From Actinomycetota bacterium (lineage in GTDB: Bacteria; Actinomycetota; Actinomycetes; Nanopelagicales; Nanopelagicaceae): 51,714 nucleotides of DNA. Positions 34,843 to 51,714 of this stretch are shown here, one piece after another. The notes below the pieces were generated by a model. That model was not told the origin of the DNA and did no database searches. It was given only the letters and a program-made list of their open reading frames with translations. Location of the stretch: assembly GCA_947450545.1 (NCBI GenBank), contig CANFVU010000007.1, positions 1 through 51,714 on the forward strand, given 5' to 3'. Both the position numbers and the translations under genes were made by a program. Numbering within the stretch: position 1 is the first letter of the stretch; every line of letters begins with the position of its first letter.

Positions 34843-35511
34843 TTACTTAATTGAGGCTCTTCGCCACTGCGCATATTCATCAGCAATCGGATCACTTACG
34901 CGTGGAAGTGCATGTCCGATCGCACATTCAAGCAATAAATCTGCAAATTCTGGATTACGTGCAAGTACAGGGCCATGTAAATATGTACCAAACACATTGC
35001 CTACAACAGCACCATCAACGCCTGACGTTCCATTTCCCATGCCTGTAATTACACCTCCCAACGGTGTAATTCCACCAGCGAGATTCGTTTCTCCGCCATG
35101 ATTTTCAAATCCTGTAAGAGTCACGCCCACAACATCCGATTCAATAGCGATATCTCCAACAAATCGAGATGCACCTGGAACAGTTTCCATATCAATCACG
35201 CCTAAACCATTTTGTTTTACTCCACCTGCAAAATATGAGTTCCCCAAAATCTGGAATCCAGCACACACTGCAAGAACAACGCAATCCTTAAAATCAAAAC
35301 CGCGAAGTGCTTCACACGATAAAACTTGTGCAGCATCTTCGGCGCCGCCTAACAGATAAATATCACCATCACCAGGAACTACATCCCGATAAGAAATATC
35401 CACCACATCCGCACTTATTCCATTCAACCCTGCGCGATACGCCAATACATCTGCATTTCCTCGGTCGCCATATGTACCGAGCAACTCATTATGGATTCGA
35501 ACTATTTTCAT
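34843..35511 (-). CDS. gatD: Lipid II isoglutaminyl synthase, glutamine amidotransferase subunit
   Basis: This 222-residue class I-like (CobB/CobQ type) glutaminase has the nucleophilic Cys in VCAGFQILG near residue 84 and the catalytic His in TYLHGPVLARN near 178. With MurT it amidates the alpha-carboxyl of D-Glu in the lipid II stem peptide. The ATG overlaps the murT stop by 4 bp (ATGA), as expected for obligate partners. The pair is typical of Actinobacteria and Firmicutes. Confidence 0.93.
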   Translation of the reverse strand: MKIVRIHNELLGTYGDRGNADVLAYRAGLNGISADVVDISYRDVVPGDGDIYLLGGAEDAAQVLSCEALRGFDFKDCVVLAVCAGFQILGNSYFAGGVKQNGLGVIDMETVPGASRFVGDIAIESDVVGVTLTGFENHGGETNLAGGITPLGGVITGMGNGTSGVDGAVVGNVFGTYLHGPVLARNPEFADLLLECAIGHALPRVSDPIADEYAQWRRASIK

Positions 35512-36641
35512 AGCCCACGCACTAACAAACCATGAAAAGCGGTATATGCCGCGAGCACTTCAACATCTCCAGAAAACTTCGTAATAGCCCCGCTAAATTC
35601 AGAAACTAATTCATTTTCCACACCTTGCACATGCAAGCGATACGAGAGATCCATTCCTCGCTCACCTGTCACCACAACTCGCTTGCCTCTCAAAGATGAG
35701 AAATCCACATCCCACAACCACGATGTATCGATTCCATCCACTTCGCGCGCATTCAAAATCAAAATGACAGAACCACCGGAAACCCCGCGAAGCGCTTCAC
35801 GCCACGACGCAGGATTCTTCGTCAATCGAATCGCACAATCAGCGTTTCCAAATTTTCGTGAAACTTTACGTTCCAACGTCGATGTATCCACTTCATGCCA
35901 CGGCACACCAAATAATTCAGCTGTCACATTTGCAAGAATTTCATTTCTCACAGCAGCGCTGGTCCCATCAAACTTCTTATCCGAGAAGTGATTGCTCAGC
36001 CCACACCCACATGAGTAGAGCCCACCAATCCAATCCAAATACGCACCACACGCAGGACAAACCGCTCCATCCGGGTGCTTTCCTGCTGCGCCGCCAAAAG
36101 AAACCTTCACGCTCTTCGCGGCGTCACTCACTACATAATTCAAGAACGGATCATCCACATCCACGACAATCGTGGCGCTTGTCTTTGATGCCATCTCTTT
36201 CCATCGATCCGCCACACGTTTTACTTCATGCATTCGGTGAAGCTGATCGCGCGTGAGATTCAGTAACAAAATCGCAGCAGGATTACTCGCAGCGGCAACC
36301 AAGGGCAAATGCAGCTCATCTACTTCAAGCACTGCATATTCACTCTTACTCATCAACGCACTTGCAACACCACGTGACAAGTTAGATCCTGACTTTGATG
36401 TCGTAACGCTGCCCGCTGTCGCCATAAACCCGGCCAACGCTCGAGTCGTAGAAGTCTTTCCATTTGTCGCTGAAACCAAAATAACTTTACGACCACGTGC
36501 CAAGAGTGAAATGGCATTAGGGCAGAGAATCAGTAGTACGCGTCCAGCAATCGTCTCACCTGACTTCTTCAGCAATACCTGCGACAAGAGAGCAGCCAAC
36601 CTGGCCACCACCATCGCAACTTGAAGTCGAAGCTGATTCAT
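35508..36641 (-). CDS. murT: Lipid II isoglutaminyl synthase, Mur-ligase-like subunit
   Basis: This 377-residue protein has a Mur-ligase central domain with ATP motif SATNGKTSTTR near residue 57. A Cys4 zinc ribbon (CPAC and later CGCG near 195-215) is the known MurT insertion. A C-terminal DUF1727 domain contributes the conserved Asp in EVDGIDTSWLW. It activates the D-Glu carboxylate with ATP for amidation by ammonia from GatD. The start abuts the apt stop directly (TAG then ATG). Confidence 0.93.
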   Translation of the reverse strand: MNQLRLQVAMVVARLAALLSQVLLKKSGETIAGRVLLILCPNAISLLARGRKVILVSATNGKTSTTRALAGFMATAGSVTTSKSGSNLSRGVASALMSKSEYAVLEVDELHLPLVAAASNPAAILLLNLTRDQLHRMHEVKRVADRWKEMASKTSATIVVDVDDPFLNYVVSDAAKSVKVSFGGAAGKHPDGAVCPACGAYLDWIGGLYSCGCGLSNHFSDKKFDGTSAAVRNEILANVTAELFGVPWHEVDTSTLERKVSRKFGNADCAIRLTKNPASWREALRGVSGGSVILILNAREVDGIDTSWLWDVDFSSLRGKRVVVTGERGMDLSYRLHVQGVENELVSEFSGAITKFSGDVEVLAAYTAFHGLLVRGL

Positions 36642-38962: not shown

Positions 38963-39037
38963 TGGAGCCTCAGGCCGGGATTGAACCGGCGACCTGTCCA
39001 TTACGAGTGGACTGCTCTACCACTGAGCCACTGAGGC
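38963..39037 (-). tRNA. tRNA-Thr (anticodon CGU)
   Basis: The minus strand folds into a complete cloverleaf. The acceptor is GCCTCAG/CTGAGGC, the D stem GCTC/GAGC, and the anticodon stem GTCCA/TGGAC with loop CTCGTAA. The T stem is GCCGG/CCGGC with loop TTCAATC, followed by discriminator T and an encoded CCA. Anticodon CGU reads ACG threonine codons. Confidence 0.96.
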
Positions 39038-39806: not shown

Positions 39807-40778
39807 TTAAACCCCGGCCCTGAGGCTCACCATAAGAGCTTCGAGAGTCAACAACGGCGCGGCATTTCGCGCCAATCTCGCCCGCGCATCCATCACCGCA
39901 TCAATCTTGGCAATGATTTTGGTCTTCTCGGCATCGCTACCCGCACCCACTAATTGATCGCGATACTTCACTGCAATATCCAACAAAATCGTATCCAAGG
40001 TGTCATGCACCATCCGCGTCTGTCGAGACTTCTGTCCCTTTTCCAATTCCTTAATCGCCTTCGATCCGCCCGCCGTCAACTTCGAACCTTGCTGGCCCCA
40101 CGCCTCTTTCGCTTTGCGAATCTCTTCATCATTTAACTCTTCTGCAACCGCTTCGGCGCCACTCTTTGCAAGCTCCACGATCTTTGCAGCTGCAGCAAAC
40201 GCCCCCGCCACATCTTTAATTTCAAATGGTAATTTCAAAATCTCTGCCGACGTTGTCACACTCAACGATGCTGGTGCCACAAATGCCAACACCCGCACAC
40301 GCGAACGAATCGTCCCAATGACGTCAACATCCGATGGTGCACACAAAATCCACACCGTCCGAAGCCCCGGCTCTTCAATTGCTTTCAACAACGCATTCGC
40401 TGCCGAATCGGTCAATCGCTCAGCACTCTCCAAAATCACAACTCGATAATTCGCAGTCGATGGACTCCACGATGCGCGTTGCACAAGTTCGCGCACATCA
40501 TCAATCTTGATTGACAAACCATCTGTCTTAATTAATTCCAAATCGCCATGCGATCCCGCAAGTACCGTTGTGCAATCCGCGCACGCACCACAACCCACAT
40601 CACGACATAACAACGATGCAGCAAATGCCAACGCAGCTTCCTCGCGACCAAATCCCGTAAACAACCAGGCATGTGTCATCTCTTGTGATTCCGACGCATC
40701 ATTTGCGGCAGCTTTCGCAGCCCCCTTCATCACAGGCACTGCCTGCTTCTGGCCGACTAACGCATCAAAAACGGACAA
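39807..40778 (-). CDS. holB: DNA polymerase III delta-prime subunit
   Basis: This 323-residue clamp-loader subunit has the AAA+ fold with a degenerate P-loop (GFGREEAA in place of GxxGxGKT), as is normal for delta-prime. Its zinc module is CRDVGCGACADC, and ALLKAIEEPG is the typical segment. It helps load the sliding clamp on DNA. The start is TTG immediately after the stop of the Tmk gene (TAA then TTG), so it is translationally coupled to tmk, a common actinobacterial order. Confidence 0.92.
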   Translation of the reverse strand: MSVFDALVGQKQAVPVMKGAAKAAANDASESQEMTHAWLFTGFGREEAALAFAASLLCRDVGCGACADCTTVLAGSHGDLELIKTDGLSIKIDDVRELVQRASWSPSTANYRVVILESAERLTDSAANALLKAIEEPGLRTVWILCAPSDVDVIGTIRSRVRVLAFVAPASLSVTTSAEILKLPFEIKDVAGAFAAAAKIVELAKSGAEAVAEELNDEEIRKAKEAWGQQGSKLTAGGSKAIKELEKGQKSRQTRMVHDTLDTILLDIAVKYRDQLVGAGSDAEKTKIIAKIDAVMDARARLARNAAPLLTLEALMVSLRAGV

Positions 40779-42803
40779 TTACTTCGCCTTCTTCGCAATA
40801 TTCATCTTCAACAACGGCAGCGCCGAAACGCGCTCCACAATCGCCGCATGAATCACTTCCACACTCTGCTGCGCATCAATCACCGCATATCGATCCGGAT
40901 CGACCGCCGCCAAATTCAAAAACTCATTCCGCACTCGCTCATGAAACGCCAGTGGCTCTTCCTCTAAACGATCCTTCGACGTCAATCGCCCAATGCCCAC
41001 CTCGGCAGGCAGATCCAAAATAATCGTCAACGTCGGAGTCAACTGCTCCGTCGCCCACCGACTAATTCGCGCCACCTCAGATGGTTGCAACACACGCCCC
41101 GCACCTTGATATGCAATCGATGAATCCAAATAACGATCCGTAATCACAACCGATCCCGCATCTAACGCCGGACGAATCAACGAATACACATGGTGCGCAC
41201 GATCCGCCGCATACATCAACGCCTCCGCGCGCGGTGAAATATGTCCCGTCTCATTCGCCAACAAAATCTTGCGAAGCTCAACACCTAAATCAGTTCCACC
41301 AGGCTCACGCGTCAACACGACAGTCTCACCAATGGATTCCAAATACTCTTTCAACATCTTCGACTGCGTCGACTTACCCGAACCTTCACCACCTTCAAAA
41401 GAGATAAAGACTCCCGAATGTGTCGCCCCGGTTATTCCCCCGAGCTCACCGCGAAATGCCATCGCAATATCCGACCACAACGAAACATTGGGACGATCCT
41501 TCATGCGACGGTAAGAAACAACTCCCACCACCACACCAATGATTCCCGCACCAAACATCGTAAATGCCGCACCGTTATACGAGACCGAGAAATTCGAAAC
41601 CTTAAATGTATGTCGACCCACCGCAGCTGCCACAGCCGGTGCGATTGCCAAAACTCCGACCAACGAAATACGAATCAACGATTGCACGAAAGCAAATGTG
41701 CGCCCACGTACTTCATCCTCAACTTCAAGCCCCAACATCGTGAAGCCAGTGACCCACGAAAGCCCCGCAAATGCCCCTAAAACAACCACAATAAACAAGG
41801 CCAAGACCAAGTTAGTAACAAGTGCCAATAACAATAAGAAAACAGACGAAATCGTCAGCGACGCACCAAAAATACGACGACGCGAGAATTGCCCAAAGAT
41901 CTTTGGTCCCAAGGAGATTCCCAAAGCAAGACCAAGGAATACCGCACCAAACAAGATTCCATACGCAGCATCACCCGCCTGCAGATCCCCAACAAAAGTA
42001 CGCGCCAATCCAATAACTGCACCCGCCGCAAAGAACGCACCAAGCATTCCAAAAATCAGCCCCGATATAACTTGATTGCTCCGTACAAATTTAAAGCCCT
42101 CAAACAAACTTCGCCCAATATTGTCACTCTTCGTCTTTGAATCCGCAGCGCCCTTTGGCAACATCTTCAACGTATAAACAATCCACGCCGTATACAAAAA
42201 CGAAATCGCATCCACATACAACGCCAAATCCGCCGGCGTAAAGAACTTCGTGTGCTTCAACCCCGCACCCGCAATAGCAATCAACGCAAAGACCACCGAC
42301 GCCACCGGCGCACTTCCATACGACGCCAACAACGTTACCTGGTTCGCCGACTCCAATTTATTCTTCGGCACCAAATTCGGCACCGACGCTTCCTTCGCGG
42401 GCGACCAAAACAACGTCACCGCTTCCACTAAAACAGTGGCGGTATATAACCAAAGATAATTTCCAACAATCGGAATCGATGCATACAAACCAAATCGCAA
42501 AATATCGCAGACAATCATCAAACGCCTACGATCAAATCGATCAGCGATCACACCAGCAATCGGCCCCAAGAAAACCGCCGGCAACAAACGCACAATAAAA
42601 ACACCCGCAATAGCAAAGTTCGCCTTCTTATAATCCGATCCCGCTAGCTCCTGCGCCAATGCAGTCGTGGCCAACAATCCAAGCCAATCCCCAAACGAGG
42701 AGAAGGCCATCGAGTTCCACAGCTTCCTAAAAGCCGGAATCGACAACACACTCCTGGAATCCGCCTGCGCGGGGGCGCCGGGATATGGCATCTGCTGAGA
42801 CAT
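40779..42803 (-). CDS. tmk: Fusion of MFS transporter and thymidylate kinase
   Basis: This 674-residue fusion has an MFS domain of about 12 helices (about 20-430, with GVIADRFDRRR). A dTMP kinase domain (about 465-670) follows, with P-loop FEGGEGSGKST, TREPGGT and the lid and base motif DRYLDSSIAYQG. The kinase makes dTDP from dTMP, and the role of the membrane part is unknown. Such fusions are known in actinobacteria, so this is not a frameshift artefact. ATG 42803 is preferred to TTG 42827 because identity with the second copy ends at 42818, between the two. TAGACT lies just before the ATG, suggesting a leaderless transcript. The 5' end is duplicated at 51432-51635. Confidence 0.9.
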   Translation of the reverse strand: MSQQMPYPGAPAQADSRSVLSIPAFRKLWNSMAFSSFGDWLGLLATTALAQELAGSDYKKANFAIAGVFIVRLLPAVFLGPIAGVIADRFDRRRLMIVCDILRFGLYASIPIVGNYLWLYTATVLVEAVTLFWSPAKEASVPNLVPKNKLESANQVTLLASYGSAPVASVVFALIAIAGAGLKHTKFFTPADLALYVDAISFLYTAWIVYTLKMLPKGAADSKTKSDNIGRSLFEGFKFVRSNQVISGLIFGMLGAFFAAGAVIGLARTFVGDLQAGDAAYGILFGAVFLGLALGISLGPKIFGQFSRRRIFGASLTISSVFLLLLALVTNLVLALFIVVVLGAFAGLSWVTGFTMLGLEVEDEVRGRTFAFVQSLIRISLVGVLAIAPAVAAAVGRHTFKVSNFSVSYNGAAFTMFGAGIIGVVVGVVSYRRMKDRPNVSLWSDIAMAFRGELGGITGATHSGVFISFEGGEGSGKSTQSKMLKEYLESIGETVVLTREPGGTDLGVELRKILLANETGHISPRAEALMYAADRAHHVYSLIRPALDAGSVVITDRYLDSSIAYQGAGRVLQPSEVARISRWATEQLTPTLTIILDLPAEVGIGRLTSKDRLEEEPLAFHERVRNEFLNLAAVDPDRYAVIDAQQSVEVIHAAIVERVSALPLLKMNIAKKAK

Positions 42804-42818
42804 AAGGGGGAGTCTATC
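42615..42818 (-). repeat. Direct repeat copy A: 5' end of the MFS-Tmk gene
   Basis: These 204 bases match 51432-51635 at 199 positions, in the same orientation. They cover the first 63 codons and 15 bases upstream, including TAGACT. The five differences are all synonymous. This copy belongs to the intact gene. Confidence 0.95.
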
Positions 42819-42821
42819 GGT

Positions 42822-42855
42822 GCTCAAAACAGGGCATTTTCAGCCTATTTTGAGC
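42822..42855 (-). terminator. Imperfect hairpin between the secreted-protein gene and MFS-Tmk
   Basis: GCTCAAAACAGGGC (42822-42835) pairs with GCCTATTTTGAGC (42843-42855) with one mismatch and one bulge around a 7-base loop. It begins 8 bases after the stop of the 663-residue protein and ends just before the repeat boundary at 42818. It probably separates cassette transcription from tmk, although it has no T-run. Confidence 0.6.
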
Positions 42856-42862
42856 CCTCTAG

Positions 42863-44854
42863 CTACTTTTTAACGGTGACAGTGACGGTCTTGGTTGTAT
42901 TGCCTACCTTGATCGTCAGCTTGTATATGCCTGGCTTAGCAAACTTCAAAGCTGGCAAAGTCACGTTGCCTTTCGATTGAGTTGTCGTTGAAGAGACTTG
43001 ATAACTCTTTCCATCGGCACCCTTAATTGTCACAACAACTTTTGATCCCTTAGCCACAGCTGGCAAAGTGAGGGCAAAAGTCTTCGAAGCACTTATCGAA
43101 ACAGCAGTGGAAGGTTTCGCCGCTGAGACAGAAATTGAAGCCTTCGATGTTGATGGCAACACAGTCGCACCAGAACTCTTTGGCAATGCACTTGGAATTG
43201 GTTTACTTGGTGAAGGCAGCGGCTGAGGAGTTGCACTTGGTACAACTGGCAAAACAATTCCGGTTGGTTCTGGAGATGGATTTGCAAATGGTGTTGGAGA
43301 GTTGCGAATGACCGGAGTCATCACCGGCGATGGGGTCGTTGATGGGGAAGGTGTTGGTGTTGGAGATTCAGAGACAACTGGAGCAGGTGCACCTCCGCCA
43401 CCGCCACCAAGTGCAGCCAAAATTGTGAATGGGCGAGATACAGAAGTACTTGCATAACTTGAGGTAGCAACTGAAGTTGCGGTCACTGTACAAGAACCTG
43501 TGGCACTGAGATTAATGCTTGCAGTGCCTGAAGTATTTTGTGTTACAGAACAATTTCCTGATGCAGTGAAATTAATAGTAATTCCAGAGACCGCAGTAGT
43601 TGCCGAGACTGTAAATGGACCAGGCAAATTCTTATCGGCGATTGCTGAGAAAGTAATTGCTGGTGTTGCTTTAGTGATGTTGAAAGTTTTATTTGCTGTC
43701 GCGGCGTCATAAGTTGAAGTAGCAGGGGATGTTGCTGTGACAGTACAAGTACCCACTGCGTTCGCAATAATTCCTATCGCAGAGTCGTATGTACATGCAT
43801 TAGCTGGATTGCTCGTAACTGTGATGGTGACGACTCCACCTGATGCAACAGAAGCAGATACTGATTGGTTAGATCCAACAGCCATATTGGCTAGCGTTGT
43901 TGGAGTCCATGTCACTGTATTTGCAGTCAAACTCGCTGCTGAAACAGTTGCGGATGATGATGCTGGAGATACATCAGAAGTACCAACAATATTGGTAGCA
44001 GTGACAGTTGCTGTATATGTTCCTGCAATAACTCCAGTAAATGTTGTGGTGGTTCCGCCCGTAACTGACTTTGATGCATTGCCGGCAGCATTTGTACTGT
44101 TAACAACGCTGACAGTGTAAGAAGTGATTGTGCTGCCATTATCTGCCGGAGCGCTCCAGGTGGCAGTCAGCGTCGTTCCGCTTGCAGAGAATGTTGGTGC
44201 AGTAGGAGCTGATGGCTTTGATGGGACAATAGCAGTCGCAAAAGATGCAGAAGCAGAACTTCCAAGACTGTTGATTGCAACAATTGTGTAGTTCAACGTA
44301 CTACCGGCAGCAAGACCTGTAAAAGTTTTACTAGTGGCAGCTGGATCTGAAATGGTTGTGTCTACTCCACCAACAGAAATTTTGTAACCTGTTAGTGGAA
44401 GTCCGCCAGTATTAGTTGGAGCTCCCCAAATCAACGCAACTTGTCCAACGCCTGCAGTTGCAGATGTAATCGTTGGTTTAGCTGGTACAGATTTTGCAAC
44501 GAACGTAACGGGATCGGATTCGACAAGCGCGCCAGTGTTATCAACTGCAGTCACCGAAATTGAATACGATGCTCCGCCAGATAAGCTGTCGATATTGATT
44601 TGGCACGGTGAAGCAATGCAACCTACCGGTGAAGTTTGGGTTGTAATTCCCCCTGTGGTCGCTTTTGCATAATATGTAATTGCGCCAGTAACTTTTGAAA
44701 AACTTACTTGTACTGAAGCAGCATCGACTGAATAAGGCGAGATCGAGGCACTCGAGACAGTTACCCCTGACGGCTTGGGCATGGTTGCCCAAGCCGCGGC
44801 GAGACCAATAGTTGCAAGAGTTAGGGCGATAATTGAAGTTATAAATTTTTTCAT
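42863..44854 (-). CDS. Secreted multi-domain Ig-like/FN3 protein (partner of giant repeat protein)
   Basis: This 663-residue exported protein has a signal peptide (about 1-23). Three fibronectin-III-like domains follow (about 28-305; KPTITSATAGVGQVALIWGA and PTFSASGTTLTATWSAP mark starts). Two Ig-like modules with single Cys pairs come next (about 310-475; CTYDSAIGI and CTVTATSPAT). After a GGGGGG hinge there is a Pro/Ser/Thr-rich stalk (about 482-575) and a C-terminal beta module (about 585-663). There is no LPXTG motif. The start lies 7 bp after the giant gene stop, with AAGGGG as ribosome-binding site, so the two form an operon. A surface-fibre or adhesion role is inferred from architecture. 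Confidence 0.85.
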   Translation of the reverse strand: MKKFITSIIALTLATIGLAAAWATMPKPSGVTVSSASISPYSVDAASVQVSFSKVTGAITYYAKATTGGITTQTSPVGCIASPCQINIDSLSGGASYSISVTAVDNTGALVESDPVTFVAKSVPAKPTITSATAGVGQVALIWGAPTNTGGLPLTGYKISVGGVDTTISDPAATSKTFTGLAAGSTLNYTIVAINSLGSSASASFATAIVPSKPSAPTAPTFSASGTTLTATWSAPADNGSTITSYTVSVVNSTNAAGNASKSVTGGTTTTFTGVIAGTYTATVTATNIVGTSDVSPASSSATVSAASLTANTVTWTPTTLANMAVGSNQSVSASVASGGVVTITVTSNPANACTYDSAIGIIANAVGTCTVTATSPATSTYDAATANKTFNITKATPAITFSAIADKNLPGPFTVSATTAVSGITINFTASGNCSVTQNTSGTASINLSATGSCTVTATSVATSSYASTSVSRPFTILAALGGGGGGAPAPVVSESPTPTPSPSTTPSPVMTPVIRNSPTPFANPSPEPTGIVLPVVPSATPQPLPSPSKPIPSALPKSSGATVLPSTSKASISVSAAKPSTAVSISASKTFALTLPAVAKGSKVVVTIKGADGKSYQVSSTTTQSKGNVTLPALKFAKPGIYKLTIKVGNTTKTVTVTVKK

Positions 44855-44861
44855 TTACCCC

Positions 44862-47800
44862 TTAGACCGTCCGATTCTGTCGTACGGCAACTTGTCCAGG
44901 CGAAGGGGGCGTAAATGCCGTGTTGTAGCCCGACAGGACCATCAAATCTGTGGCTCCGGTTGGATTAATTGGAATCACTTTAATCTTCCACTGTATGGAG
45001 GAATCAAGTTGTAGTCCGTAGTTTCCATCGGAATCTGTGGATGTAATAACTGCTACAGCATCGTTATCAGACGTTTCAGTTGAAGGAAGTGCATAAATAA
45101 CAGCGCCTGAAACAGCTGTGCCATTATGTGTAACGGTTCCGATGACATTTCCTTGAGCAAGCGTCATGGTCAATGTTGATCCAACCATGTTAGCGCCAGT
45201 ACATGTATTGCTTGCATTGGTTGTCACAGTTACAGAATCACTCGAATCCGCTTGTAGGTAGCAAACGCTTTGAGCGCCTGGCTTCCCTGGACCTGGCCAT
45301 GCAGTAATTCTGTAGTACTTAGTTCCTGGAAGGGAAAGACTTGCTCGACCTTGATCATCGAGACCGTAGCCACCCACCCATCCAATCCAATTTCCAGAAA
45401 TGTCTACTTGCTCAACATTCACCCAGCCCCACTTATCAGTCACACCGCTCTTTGCGTTGATAACCAAGTTGAGATTTGGTGCTGCCAATTTGAAACTTTG
45501 ATTGTTGACGCTTGAGAATGCAAGTCCTGCACCAGAAACACCATCATATGTTTTCGCTGCATATTGACTCTTCATATTCCATGGAGCATCTACTTGAACA
45601 GCAAATGCTGTGGAAGTATCAACGATATTAAATGTTGCGACACCACTTGAATCAGTGTTGCTTCCACCAATCCATTGCTTGTTACCGCCCACGACACTGA
45701 ATATCTGCACCCAAGCACCTTGCCCGATATTTGAGTCATCAGGTTTCTTCACCTGAATAGTCGTATTCGGCGCTGGCATCGTGATTGTGATTGGTGAGCT
45801 TATGTCGCTACCCACATAATCTGATGTCGTACTCAAATCAACGGATGGAACATTCACGCAAGGGGTAGTGACTTGCGAGGATGCACAATTCACTCTAACC
45901 ACTGCACTTGATCCCCATGGTGGGTCAATCCAGATCCACAGATTTTGCGTGCCTGTTAATCCGCCGCCAAAACCGCTCTTAATCGCAGCTTTATCCACGA
46001 ATACTGAAACTTTTCCGTTGGAATCACTATTTCCATATGTATTCCAAGGACCTAGTCCAATTCCGAATCCTGCATTTTGAATTGGATGTCCATCTTTATC
46101 TACGAGACGAACTGTGAGGTTCGGTGCACGTAATCCGAGCACGACTCCACCTGAATTTGTCGCACATCCAGAGACATTGGAAATCGTATTTGAAGATGTC
46201 ACAGTCAATGAACAACGTGCACTTCTCGCCAATCCCGAAACATTCCATGGAACGTTCGCTTCTAGCTGGTAATTACCAGCAGAGAGCGCCATACCAAATT
46301 GACCTTGTGAGTTGGTATTAGATCCATAATTACCAAGCCAATCGCCTGTATCAGCATTAATTGGATTAACCCAACTATTTGCGACAGATGATCCATCCGG
46401 CTTTTGCACAACACCCGTTACAGATGGAGTTGCAAGATGTACCGGGAAAATTCCAGAAGAGTTCTTAGAAACCGGTGCTGCATTGAATGTGTCACTCAGT
46501 GCAACAATCGAAGTATTCGATCCATCAACGACAGCTGTGTAAGCATGACGAGTGGATGTCGTACTTCCGTTCCAAGGGGCATTAACCGTGACGGTGTATA
46601 CGTGACCAGCTGTTGGGGCATTAAGAGCAACAAATCCATTGCGATCTGTTGAACCTCCGCCAATCCAAACGTTATCGGTTGCATCAAATAATTCAACCCA
46701 TGTGTATGGGACCAAGGAATTATTAACTGGATCAGTTACTTCCATTTTCACATTTGGTGTAGCAAGTGAAACAGAATCAGCGAATGTGGTGCCGGCACCG
46801 ATAAGCGTTGCTACTTCTGACGATGTATATCTCTTAAAGAGTGATGCATACGAACTCGAGTAATCAGCATTTCCATTAACTTCAACGCGGACGTTAAATG
46901 ACTTATCTGGAAGTGCTGAAAGCCCATCAAGGTTGAATCGAGCGTAGCCGTTGGAATCTGTTCCAGAGCCACCGATCCATCCAAAGTTGTCTTTATCTAG
47001 GTTCACCCAAAGATTTCTCGCTGGTGATCCATTAGCCATCACGCGGATAGTGATATTTGGAGCTACAAGACGCAGATCGACAGATCCACCGCCATGCATA
47101 AAACCTGCTCCTTCGATGGCAGATTTACCTTGATATGTGGCCATTGAGAAGTTGCTTGATCCATTCGGAGCGACTTGAAGTTGCGAATCAGAGGCAAAGT
47201 CTGTGGTCCCAACGGTGTACCCAGTTGGAGCTGACATTGCCCAATTTCCATTTTGATCTGTATTCGCGCAAATCCATGGGCTCTTTGACGAAATATTAAC
47301 GAATAGGCAGACACGAGCATTTGCGAGCGCAGTTGCACCCGTTGGATCCAGAACTCGGCCAGACCAGGTTGGTGACTTCAATTTAATCTTGAATGCAGAC
47401 GTTGTAAGACCAGCAGTTTGGGCAGCGCCTTCTACGCTCGTATTTCCATTTGCTGCGACAACAACGTTACCTATGAGATCGCTGTTACCCATGTTTGTAA
47501 CATTCCACGGTGCGCGTGCATAGATTGAATACGATCCTTGAGGAAGTGACATTGCCCAACTTCCGTCAGCATGTGAACCAACAGAGTAATCCCACATTTC
47601 TTGACCAGTTGAATTGTCTACAGGAACAATTTGTGCATCGCGAACGGCAACTCCTGGTGTAGTTGTATCAACAACAGTTCCGACAAGTCCTGCTGTGCCA
47701 AGTTTCAAAACATAAACACCGCTTGAATTTGGCGTGACACCTGTGACTGCACCTGTGAATGAAGAGCCGCTTGCTGTGACACTTACGGAATAGATCTTCT

Positions 47801-50800
47801 TAGAAGCGGTTGGTTCTGAACCATCTCCTGGAGGGTTGACTACAAAATCATATGTCCCAGCGCTTGTGAGGTTTACTCCACCGATTCCACTCCAACCAGT
47901 ACCACTCCAATCAATCCAGTTACCATTCTTACGAATTTCAATTCCGATATTTTGGAGATTTGTATTTCCAGTTGCGGTTTGGACTGCAACTTTCAAAGTT
48001 GGAGCATTAAGACGAATTTCTCCAAAATCTTTTGACAAAGTATTTGGATCTGTAACGGCGAATGAATCTGTATTTGTCACCGAGACGTCCGAGCGACCTT
48101 CCGGCTGTAAACGCAAGCGATATGTTCCAGCTGCTTCTACGCGCATGCTGAAATATCCATCTTGGTTGACGTTGGCCCAGTTATTGGACCAATTCCAGTT
48201 AACTCCATCACCAGCAAGTTTCTGGAGGTTGACGTTCATCCAGATGTTATTTCCATTGCTCCAAGGGACTCCCGCAGCATCAAGGACTCGTCCAGAAATA
48301 TTCGCACTAGCAGGCGATACGACATAACGCCCACTATCTTGAGAAACTGCCGAACCTAGGGCTTGAGGATCATTTCCAACAGTGAACGAAGTAACTGCAC
48401 CCGCTTCAACTTTCACGATGTACTGCTTAGTTGTAAGTCCTACTATAGATGCAGCGCCTTGCGGAGGATTGACGGTTAGTAGATATTGGCCATTTCCTAG
48501 AGCGGCGCTTGTTAATCCTGGATTGCTTGCATTGAGATCCATGTTTTGAATCCAATGACGTGCACCATAAATATCGTCAAACATCTCAACAGTCACCCAA
48601 CCATTACTTAGTGGTGTTGCGGGACTCGTGAGTGGATTTACAACTGTAAGTTTGAGATTTGGCGTCGCAAGATTCGCGTTGATCACTTGTGAATCAGCTG
48701 GTGAGTTACTGTTATAACTAACTTTTAGTGGGCCTGTTGTTACATCGAAAGGTTCGATGAAGCTCTGGGAATAATCATTGAACCCGATTGGGTTCAAGGA
48801 AACGCGATATCGCCCAGCCTCTGTGATGTTGTAACGAACCACTCCTTGTGACCAGCCGCCATCTTGAGAATAATCCCAGAAATTCTTGACAGAGTTCCAC
48901 TTAAAGAGCGTTGATTGAATCCATTGACCGTTTGCAAATGAGATTGCACCACCAGTTGGTGTCTTCACATTAAGGGTTACATTTGGCACAGATGGTGCAA
49001 GTTTGAAAACGCCGTCACTCTCTGCTGTCACTCCTGTAATAGAAGCAACACCAGAACTATTCACGGTAACTTCATATGTCTTGGTTGCAAAACCAAGTGA
49101 GCTGTCAGGGCGCACATTTAAGCGATATGTCCCTTGAGGCATGTTGAAATTCACTTTGCCCTGCTGGTTAAAGCCCATGCCTTCACAGTTGCCCCCAGAA
49201 GTTGGGCAATAATCCACTGACCCCGCGGTCAATGGCGTTGAAGAGTTTGCTGGATCTACGATCTGTAGGCGCAGGTTTGGCTGCTTTGGCGAGATGAGAT
49301 AAACATCGCCGTCCTTATTGACCGTCTCCTGGAATGTTGCTACCGAAGTGGTTGCGTTATATGTGAGGTGATAGTTGGAGAGTGCGTAAACACCGCTTTG
49401 ATCGTTTACTCGAATCAAATACTTGCCGGTGCTGAGAGATACACCCGATGTACCAGTCCATCCACCACCGTCAAAGCAACTCTGAATGTTCCAACTGTTA
49501 TCAGTAGGGCACACTTGAATATTCGATTGAGTCAACATTGTAGACGGATCTAGCGGATCGACGATCTTAAATTTCAAACTTGATAGTCCAATTGGAAGTG
49601 GATAAAAACCGGAAGAGTTTTTAGCAATAGTGGTATTAGATGCATCTTTGACAACCACTGAAGATCCACTAACTACAACAGAATAAGAAATTGCAGCTAA
49701 ATCAGAATTTCCAAATGGACTGAGGGTTAACTTGTACGTTCCGTCTGGAACTTGAATCCCACCTTGGAGTGTTGCTGAATTGAAATTTCCCCAGAAACAA
49801 TTGCCTTCGTTTCCACCGCCGAGGTCAATACACATACGGGCATCAATCCATTGAGTTTGGAGTTCAATCCCAGATGGATGACTTACAACAAAGGGAATAT
49901 TTACTGAATTAAGCGAAACGTGATAACTGCCATCACCATCAAGTGCAATCACATTATTGGCTTCATCTTTAAGTGTGAAAGTGCTTCCAGAAACCGTCAA
50001 AGTAAAGTTTGAGTTACTTGCATCATCACGATTCGGACTAAGTGAAATTGAATATGTTCCGTCCGTAAATGCAGACTTCTCCCACGAAGCGTTGCCGTCG
50101 GTGGAAGCAATATTGCCCATATCCGTCTTTGTTGAGTTGCGATTAACTTGAATGTTCGCAGCTTCCAAAGTAGAGGTGCCACTCTTCACCACTTTGAGTT
50201 TAAGCAAAGCGCTATCGGCTGGCTTAGAAAGATTAAATTCGAATGGCTTTGTTGCGGAATAACCGCTCTGTGTGAGTGACCAATTTCCGCTTGAATCTTG
50301 GTAAATATTGCGCACAAAAGCCGGGTTTGTGCCGCTTCCCGTTGGAGTGAAGATAACTTGGTACTTTCCAGCAATATTTCCCGCTACTGAGGCATAGAAA
50401 GTTCCATTGGAAGTCATGCCCGAATTTGATCGTGCAATTTGTGGGTCCGCTGCAGGGTTTCCACTTGAAGGATCTTCACGAACAACGCGCACGTTGTAAT
50501 GCGTTCCTGAAGGCAATGTGTATGAAGTGCCATCTGTGTTCTTGAGATGTCCAACCAATGTATTTGTGCGCAACTTAAATTGATAGATGCCAGCACCAGT
50601 TGGTGAATACACAGAAGTGAATTGGGCATCCGAATAGAAAGTAGGAGTTTGTGATCCCGCTGCTCCGCTTACTTTCATTCCATAGCGCCACGCGAATGTC
50701 GCACTATTTGTTGCACGTGAATCAGGAGCAATTGTCGCAAAGTAACTGGTGCTCGTGCTCAAGGCTGTTGGTAAATAAACACCAAATGCGCCACTTCGCA

Positions 50801-51308
50801 ATGACCAATAACAGTTACCATTATTTTGAGTACCAAGAAGTGGATCTACGGATGGCAAACAGAACCATGTGTGATTCTCTGCTGCAGTCCCATCGTTGTT
50901 AAGCAACTCAACTTTAAGGTTCGCCTGCTTGAGATTGATGTTGTACGTGCCATCTGCAACTGCTGACAATCCTGCATCAGCCATCGCGACAGCATCAGTC
51001 ATATTCCCTGAAGGTGGCGTGACCTGAAGTTGCATCCAATTCACATATCGACTGATGGTAAATGTAGCCACACCATTCGCACCTGTAGTAACAACCGGTG
51101 AGAAAAATTCATCAACCGCGTCATACGTCAACATCTGAACGAGCGCACCACTCATCAAATTACCGCTGTGATCGCGCACCACAACCGTCTTCGTGACCGT
51201 TCCCGCCGCTTGCGCACTTCCCATTCCCACTCCGGGCAGTACCGTTTGGAAAATTCCTATCAACAAAGAAAAGACAGCAAGCTTTGAAATCGATGCGCGT
51301 TTTAACAT
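44862..51308 (-). CDS. Giant secreted repeat protein (2148 aa, about 20 Cna-B/carboxypeptidase-regulatory-like units)
   Basis: After a signal peptide of about 35 residues (cleavage near SAQAAGT), the whole protein consists of about 20 diverged units averaging 105 residues. Units tend to open with phrases such as PNLTVRLVDKDG, PNVKMEVTDPV or GRVLDPTG. A W-rich strand follows (NWIDW, QWIGG), then DxNG, and units close with Y-x-hydrophobic-x-hydrophobic and xPWN or PPxG. This matches the transthyretin-like Cna-B or carboxypeptidase-regulatory fold, used in surface stalks. Cys is rare, and no sortase or membrane anchor is visible at the C-terminus. AGGATGG precedes the ATG. It probably forms a long extracellular rod. 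Function unknown. Confidence 0.88.
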   Translation of the reverse strand: MLKRASISKLAVFSLLIGIFQTVLPGVGMGSAQAAGTVTKTVVVRDHSGNLMSGALVQMLTYDAVDEFFSPVVTTGANGVATFTISRYVNWMQLQVTPPSGNMTDAVAMADAGLSAVADGTYNINLKQANLKVELLNNDGTAAENHTWFCLPSVDPLLGTQNNGNCYWSLRSGAFGVYLPTALSTSTSYFATIAPDSRATNSATFAWRYGMKVSGAAGSQTPTFYSDAQFTSVYSPTGAGIYQFKLRTNTLVGHLKNTDGTSYTLPSGTHYNVRVVREDPSSGNPAADPQIARSNSGMTSNGTFYASVAGNIAGKYQVIFTPTGSGTNPAFVRNIYQDSSGNWSLTQSGYSATKPFEFNLSKPADSALLKLKVVKSGTSTLEAANIQVNRNSTKTDMGNIASTDGNASWEKSAFTDGTYSISLSPNRDDASNSNFTLTVSGSTFTLKDEANNVIALDGDGSYHVSLNSVNIPFVVSHPSGIELQTQWIDARMCIDLGGGNEGNCFWGNFNSATLQGGIQVPDGTYKLTLSPFGNSDLAAISYSVVVSGSSVVVKDASNTTIAKNSSGFYPLPIGLSSLKFKIVDPLDPSTMLTQSNIQVCPTDNSWNIQSCFDGGGWTGTSGVSLSTGKYLIRVNDQSGVYALSNYHLTYNATTSVATFQETVNKDGDVYLISPKQPNLRLQIVDPANSSTPLTAGSVDYCPTSGGNCEGMGFNQQGKVNFNMPQGTYRLNVRPDSSLGFATKTYEVTVNSSGVASITGVTAESDGVFKLAPSVPNVTLNVKTPTGGAISFANGQWIQSTLFKWNSVKNFWDYSQDGGWSQGVVRYNITEAGRYRVSLNPIGFNDYSQSFIEPFDVTTGPLKVSYNSNSPADSQVINANLATPNLKLTVVNPLTSPATPLSNGWVTVEMFDDIYGARHWIQNMDLNASNPGLTSAALGNGQYLLTVNPPQGAASIVGLTTKQYIVKVEAGAVTSFTVGNDPQALGSAVSQDSGRYVVSPASANISGRVLDAAGVPWSNGNNIWMNVNLQKLAGDGVNWNWSNNWANVNQDGYFSMRVEAAGTYRLRLQPEGRSDVSVTNTDSFAVTDPNTLSKDFGEIRLNAPTLKVAVQTATGNTNLQNIGIEIRKNGNWIDWSGTGWSGIGGVNLTSAGTYDFVVNPPGDGSEPTASKKIYSVSVTASGSSFTGAVTGVTPNSSGVYVLKLGTAGLVGTVVDTTTPGVAVRDAQIVPVDNSTGQEMWDYSVGSHADGSWAMSLPQGSYSIYARAPWNVTNMGNSDLIGNVVVAANGNTSVEGAAQTAGLTTSAFKIKLKSPTWSGRVLDPTGATALANARVCLFVNISSKSPWICANTDQNGNWAMSAPTGYTVGTTDFASDSQLQVAPNGSSNFSMATYQGKSAIEGAGFMHGGGSVDLRLVAPNITIRVMANGSPARNLWVNLDKDNFGWIGGSGTDSNGYARFNLDGLSALPDKSFNVRVEVNGNADYSSSYASLFKRYTSSEVATLIGAGTTFADSVSLATPNVKMEVTDPVNNSLVPYTWVELFDATDNVWIGGGSTDRNGFVALNAPTAGHVYTVTVNAPWNGSTTSTRHAYTAVVDGSNTSIVALSDTFNAAPVSKNSSGIFPVHLATPSVTGVVQKPDGSSVANSWVNPINADTGDWLGNYGSNTNSQGQFGMALSAGNYQLEANVPWNVSGLARSARCSLTVTSSNTISNVSGCATNSGGVVLGLRAPNLTVRLVDKDGHPIQNAGFGIGLGPWNTYGNSDSNGKVSVFVDKAAIKSGFGGGLTGTQNLWIWIDPPWGSSAVVRVNCASSQVTTPCVNVPSVDLSTTSDYVGSDISSPITITMPAPNTTIQVKKPDDSNIGQGAWVQIFSVVGGNKQWIGGSNTDSSGVATFNIVDTSTAFAVQVDAPWNMKSQYAAKTYDGVSGAGLAFSSVNNQSFKLAAPNLNLVINAKSGVTDKWGWVNVEQVDISGNWIGWVGGYGLDDQGRASLSLPGTKYYRITAWPGPGKPGAQSVCYLQADSSDSVTVTTNASNTCTGANMVGSTLTMTLAQGNVIGTVTHNGTAVSGAVIYALPSTETSDNDAVAVITSTDSDGNYGLQLDSSIQWKIKVIPINPTGATDLMVLSGYNTAFTPPSPGQVAVRQNRTV

Positions 51309-51413
51309 GAAGCCATCCTATTTTTTACCCCAAACAGGGCGGTAGAAGTGACCAGTCCATTCTTGTTTCCTCAACAGAGTCCACTCAGCACTCACCGTAA
51401 AACAAAGTTCTAT

Positions 51414-51620
51414 TTATGCAGGAATGGAGAAAAAGTTCGCCTTCTTATAATCCGATCCCGCTAACTCCTGCGCCAATGCAGTCGTGGCCAACAATCCAAG
51501 CCAATCCCCAAAAGAGGAGAAGGCCATCGAGTTCCACAGCTTCCTAAAAGCCGGAATCGACAACACGCTCCTGGAATCCGCCTGTGCCGGGGCGCCGGGA
51601 TATGGCATCTGCTGAGACAT
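51414..51620 (-). pseudogene. Truncated second copy of the MFS-Tmk 5' end
   Basis: The frame from ATG 51620 gives 63 residues identical to the N-terminus of the intact fusion, then leaves the homology after KKANF and stops five codons later. It contains only the start of the first membrane segments and no kinase. It lies upstream of, and in the same direction as, the giant secreted gene. It is best read as a junction remnant. Its promoter-proximal TAGACT and start are intact, so a short peptide could still be made. Confidence 0.85.
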
Positions 51621-51635
51621 AAGGGGGAGTCTATC
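51432..51635 (-). repeat. Direct repeat copy B: remnant of the MFS-Tmk 5' end
   Basis: This copy is 204 bases long with 199 identical to 42615-42818 at an offset of 8817. Beyond the upstream edge (51636 onward) the sequence is unrelated to that before copy A, and beyond the other edge (below 51432) it switches to the leader of the giant gene. The boundaries therefore mark recombination joints. Confidence 0.95.
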
Positions 51636-51689
51636 CGCACCCCACTGACACGTCTTGGTCTAAATATGACGCTTATCCACATCGATTCT

Positions 51690-51714
51690 GTACAAAATCA
51701 AATTGATTCTGTAC
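51690..51714. promoter_or_regulatory. Near-perfect 25-bp palindrome at the window edge
   Basis: GTACAAAATCA and TGATTCTGTAC flank AAT, with one mismatch between the arms. The 10-mer GATTCTGTAC also occurs as a direct repeat 21 bases apart (51684 and 51705). It sits about 70 bases upstream of the truncated tmk start and may be an operator of whatever gene once lay here. The element may continue past the window. Confidence 0.5.

Follow-up and report, generated by a model that had tools for sequence, protein, structure and literature searches.

In these freshwater actinobacteria, a group among the most abundant bacteria of fresh water, the junction between topA and tmk serves as a flexible genomic island site and is recurrently filled with differing cargo. 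In the window, the whole stretch of 51,714 nt that was analysed and the entire contig C7 of a 1.31 Mb genome (88% complete), the filled site contains two secreted-protein genes lying between two copies of the tmk 5' end. We consider it probable, at about 0.6, that DNA from a close relative, comprising the cassette and its own tmk start, entered the resident tmk at this site through a homologous joint in tmk and a non-homologous joint at resident codon 63. The relevant features, read from the sequence unless otherwise stated, all lie on the minus strand:

40779-42827, minus strand: intact MFS-Tmk fusion gene (Pfam MFS_3/MFS_1 and Thymidylate_kin), likely start ATG at 42803
42615-42818, minus strand: repeat copy 1, promoter-like box and codons 1-63 of intact tmk
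42811-42816, minus strand: TAGACT, a -10-like box 7 nt before the ATG, putative leaderless promoter; box conserved in relatives
42863-44854, minus strand: secreted protein of 663 aa with fibronectin type III domains and a Pro/Ser/Thr-rich segment (ORF, Pfam)
44862-51308, minus strand: giant secreted protein of 2148 aa with CarboxypepD_reg and macroglobulin-type domains (ORF, Pfam)
51414-51620, minus strand: truncated tmk reading frame, 63 tmk codons and 5 others, then TAA
51431-51432, minus strand: non-homologous joint where tmk codon 63 meets the cassette
51432-51635, minus strand: repeat copy 2, promoter-like box (51628-51633) and codons 1-63 of a second tmk allele
51636-51714, minus strand: last 79 bp of the contig, with an operator-like near-palindrome, GTACAGAATC-aattt-GATTTTGTAC; no match in congeners

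The gap between topA and tmk

Orthologues of the MFS-Tmk gene, which are 60-91% identical within the same genus and family, were gathered from GTDB contigs as well as from 60 related genomes. They represent 72 distinct loci, most of the named sources being uncultured lake actinobacteria and Candidatus Nanopelagicales. The site is empty in 55 loci, where topA, preceded by a conserved run of genes, ends just before tmk; other DNA lies upstream of tmk in 16, and one locus is undecided. topA is still visible 0.6-9.6 kb further out in nine of the 16 filled loci (L026, L035, L036, L056, L059, L070, L071, L076 and L077), which places the insertions between topA and tmk. The cargo varies from locus to locus, with sugar-nucleotide, glycosyltransferase, toxin-antitoxin and secreted-protein genes well represented; among its products are sugar epimerases, aminotransferases, glycosyltransferases, ParE-type toxins, an M3 peptidase, inositol-phosphate synthase and secreted proteins. 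Hence a single site is found both empty and filled with unrelated content in related genomes, with surface and glycosylation functions appearing prominent among the cargo, and this identifies it as a flexible island site. The first-pass annotation had proposed, as a check, a comparison of the region upstream of tmk in relatives for alternative arrangements, and these exist as either empty sites, with tmk next to topA, or unrelated cargo that includes secreted and surface-polysaccharide genes. No relative was found with tmk joined to the sequence beyond 51636, of which there are only 79 bp that match nothing in the relatives.

Empty and filled sites alike have only a short stretch of conservation upstream of tmk, centred on a TAGRCT-like box that precedes the ATG by 6-7 nt. 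In 59 of the 72 loci a TANNNT box stands 5-8 nt ahead of the ATG, and in several of the remainder it precedes a different start codon; in many empty sites its TAG is the topA stop codon. Both copies of the tmk start in the window retain the promoter-like box. This arrangement suggests that tmk has a leaderless promoter, which would have to be kept whenever the gap is filled. A broader idea, which we regard as doubtful, is that the tmk start with its leaderless promoter, whose -10 box at empty sites shares bases with the stop codon of topA, serves as a portable anchor; islands would then arrive with a tmk 5' end, and throughout the clade the exchange of surface genes would also swap the promoter of an essential gene. 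The synonymous divergence ratio at the tmk 5' end is about 1 in the filled and empty classes alike, such that a general valley there is not supported by the comparison of filled with empty sites, and only single pairs such as L039 and L041 deviate (0.18 versus 0.55).

Only one pair of loci, L033 and L036, shares an island edge: the edge and 1.5 kb of tmk are about 99% identical, followed by about 20% divergence. The switch in L033 (193-3556), from about 1% to about 20% divergence relative to L036, is abrupt, lies near tmk codon 500, and may represent either recombination or an assembly mosaic. As the L033 genome contains two overlapping holB fragments, this contig is possibly chimeric, and such errors are possible at this locus. 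Related FAD-dependent oxidoreductase genes adjoin tmk, in opposite orientation, in two distant relatives (L056, 2695-3909; L092, 8758-9957).

The repeated tmk start and its cassette

A 204-bp direct repeat of the tmk 5' end, with two secreted-protein genes between its copies, had been recorded in the first-pass annotation, and both its coordinates (42615-42818 and 51432-51635) and its identity (199 of 204 positions, without gaps) agree with our comparison; the spacing of the copies is 8817 bp. In gene orientation, the repeat begins 15 bp before the ATG, includes the promoter-like box and extends through codons 1-63 of the MFS-Tmk gene. A match of 98% over 204 bp lies far outside what chance would produce, and the copies, with five mismatches, are far nearer to each other than to any relative, the best of which is 88% identical over the repeat stretch. 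It had been anticipated that one copy might match some relative better, and neither clearly does. Copy 2 breaks off at codon 63 and no tmk sequence follows, whilst the gene on the cassette side is complete and has its promoter-like box. The 21 bp between the joint and the second GAACTTTG at the joint have no other copy in the window.

The five mismatches (CCC/CCG, GCG/GCA, AGT/AGC, TCG/TCT and CTA/TTA) are all synonymous, as originally noticed; the copies differ at three of 30 fourfold-degenerate sites (about 10%), and the 63 codons of copy 2 contain neither frameshift nor stop. Had the repeat arisen through duplication within the genome, with the intact gene kept under selection and copy 2 drifting neutrally ever since, the probability of all five changes being silent would be 0.007-0.017, depending on the transition bias assumed. 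The argument drawn earlier from the silent differences therefore keeps its direction, although its strength is less than the first count suggested. Such wholly silent divergence favours two functional alleles that met later, and fits the proposal that they were separately under selection before being united. Given the differences at three of 30 fourfold sites, with the nearest relative being 88% identical, donor and recipient would have been close relatives.

The open reading frames of both the 663 aa and 2148 aa proteins have signal-peptide-like starts. The giant protein has a single match, weak and partial, in 31 congeneric genomes and none in viral contigs, in which no tmk was found either. 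The C-terminal 90-180 residues of the 663 aa protein (42863-44854) match parts of otherwise different proteins in three genomes (G008, G021 and G026). G occupies 44-49% of the fourfold sites in tmk and holB (39807-42827; also 35508-36641), compared with about 5-20% in most other genes of the window; among tmk orthologues the median is 13%. These shifts towards G arise from A, C and T alike, and the next highest values among tmk genes are those of L035 and L076, both filled sites.

Origin of the repeat

Under the preferred reading, a fragment from a close relative, with a tmk about 10% divergent at fourfold sites, would have carried the secreted-protein cassette and the donor tmk start. One end of the fragment would have recombined by homology somewhere within tmk, and the other would have been attached to codon 63 of the resident gene without homology. 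The resident promoter and the first 63 codons would thereby have been left isolated on the outer side of the cassette, and tmk would have acquired the donor promoter and 5' end. This predicts the resident flank first, then the resident tmk 5' end broken at codon 63, next the cassette, and last the donor tmk 5' end leading into the tmk body, which is the order observed. The homologous recombination at the tmk start originally put forward would account for one joint but not for that at codon 63, which is non-homologous; homology-facilitated illegitimate recombination is consequently the more exact model. This process has been described experimentally, although it was rare in the E. coli experiment (PMC3240628), and its rarity counts against the reading. 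We infer the identity of the donor, the order of events, the position of the homologous crossover and the selective reason, for instance phage recognition of surface proteins.

The lack of a general change in synonymous divergence between filled and empty sites, noted above, likewise speaks against this explanation. Also against it is the position of copy 2, which lies wholly inside the last 283 bp of the contig, and with its 79-bp flank makes up exactly that segment, such that the tip may be misassembled. As the window is the whole contig, the outer neighbourhood of copy 2 is unseen; as topA was not found in this 88% complete MAG, so is the outer edge of the island. In L070, GTACAG half-sites resembling the near-palindrome at the contig end are found beside a ParE/Phd-type pair adjoining tmk, hence a toxin-antitoxin pair may lie beyond the end of the contig. 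The main rival explanation, which we hold to be unlikely, is an assembly chimera: the sample would have contained a second strain whose tmk allele had another sequence upstream, and the assembler would have attached the 5' end of this allele to the contig tip. Such an error would be in keeping with the location of copy 2, with the variability of the locus between strains, and with the mosaic appearance of other contigs here (the L033 versus L036 switch and the two overlapping holB pieces). However, no shared sequence that could give rise to a false link is evident at the 51431/51432 joint, and the longest exact run common to the copies, at 53 bp, is inside them.

Partial duplication of the tmk start within the genome, followed by decay, with the cassette either inserted later or carried between the copies, would explain their common orientation, their presence in one genome and their high identity. 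It is nevertheless quite improbable, in view of the low likelihood of five silent changes calculated above and the undamaged 63 codons. A further alternative, that copy 2 has been retained under selection as the working promoter and leader of the giant secreted-protein gene, draws on its intact TAGACT box and ATG, and on the short frame ending 105 bp upstream of that gene in the same direction. Yet the copy is absent from every other filled site, and a promoter has no need of 63 conserved codons; as an explanation of the repeat we judge this role highly unlikely, though it is compatible with insertion of donor DNA as a later function.

SXT inserts in the 5' end of prfC, supplying a new start. 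A mobile element integrating site-specifically in tmk in the same manner, and carrying a replacement 5' end, is the least credible and a disfavoured possibility: it would suit repeated insertion at a single position without loss of the intact gene, but no recombinase was detected in the cassette or among the 25 listed of the 46 cargo families (50 proteins from the filled loci), and no direct repeats of more than 13 bp are common to the two edges of any of the eight islands for which both edges can be seen. Neither a recombinase nor short direct repeats at both edges, as expected of a site-specific integrative element, were thus seen, the outer part of the island in the window being out of view. 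The first-pass annotation likewise saw no integrase, transposase or tRNA site at the joints, and this stands: the only tRNA of the window is a tRNA-Thr at 38963-39037, and the only two Phage_integrase-family proteins of the genome are both on other contigs. Its suggestion that such repeats would permit precise excision is not supported, as no second tmk 5' end occurs in any other locus with upstream sequence. Together with the lack of edge repeats in the eight islands, this indicates the scar of one event rather than a recurrent boundary or an excision system.

The tmk repeat is therefore the probable molecular scar of one insertion, in which the donor and recipient alleles are both preserved. 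If the structure is confirmed, it would reveal how bacteria with streamlined genomes and no visible mobile elements gain surface genes.

Relation to known exchange systems

Elements of the SXT/prfC type resemble the insertion proposed here in that the reading frame of the target gene stays complete whilst what lies upstream of it is new; they differ in that here no integrase was seen, the sister islands have no attachment repeats, and the 204-bp repeat has allelic differences.

The replacement flexible genomic islands of aquatic prokaryotes (Lopez-Perez et al. 2014, PMC4033161) offer a parallel for the site as a whole. These surface islands are exchanged by homologous recombination via conserved flanking genes, with peaks of silent SNPs at their edges, and the likeness extends to the use of one chromosomal site for unrelated surface-structure genes and, for the two tmk starts of the window, to silent differences at the boundary. 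Unlike them, the topA-tmk site is empty in many relatives, a truncated copy of the flanking gene has been left behind, and no clear pair of identical islands in diverged backgrounds was found among the relatives' topA-tmk loci.

In Vibrio T6SS immunity arrays and Rhs loci, where homology-facilitated illegitimate recombination has been proposed to explain displaced gene ends (PMC5361080), a new module with one homologous anchor would similarly displace the old gene end outward as an orphan. Here, by contrast, a housekeeping gene provides the anchor, and what is orphaned, in a single example, is its 5' end with the promoter. As far as the literature checked shows, the topA-tmk locus is new, and its mode is probably an ordinary, known kind of island exchange.
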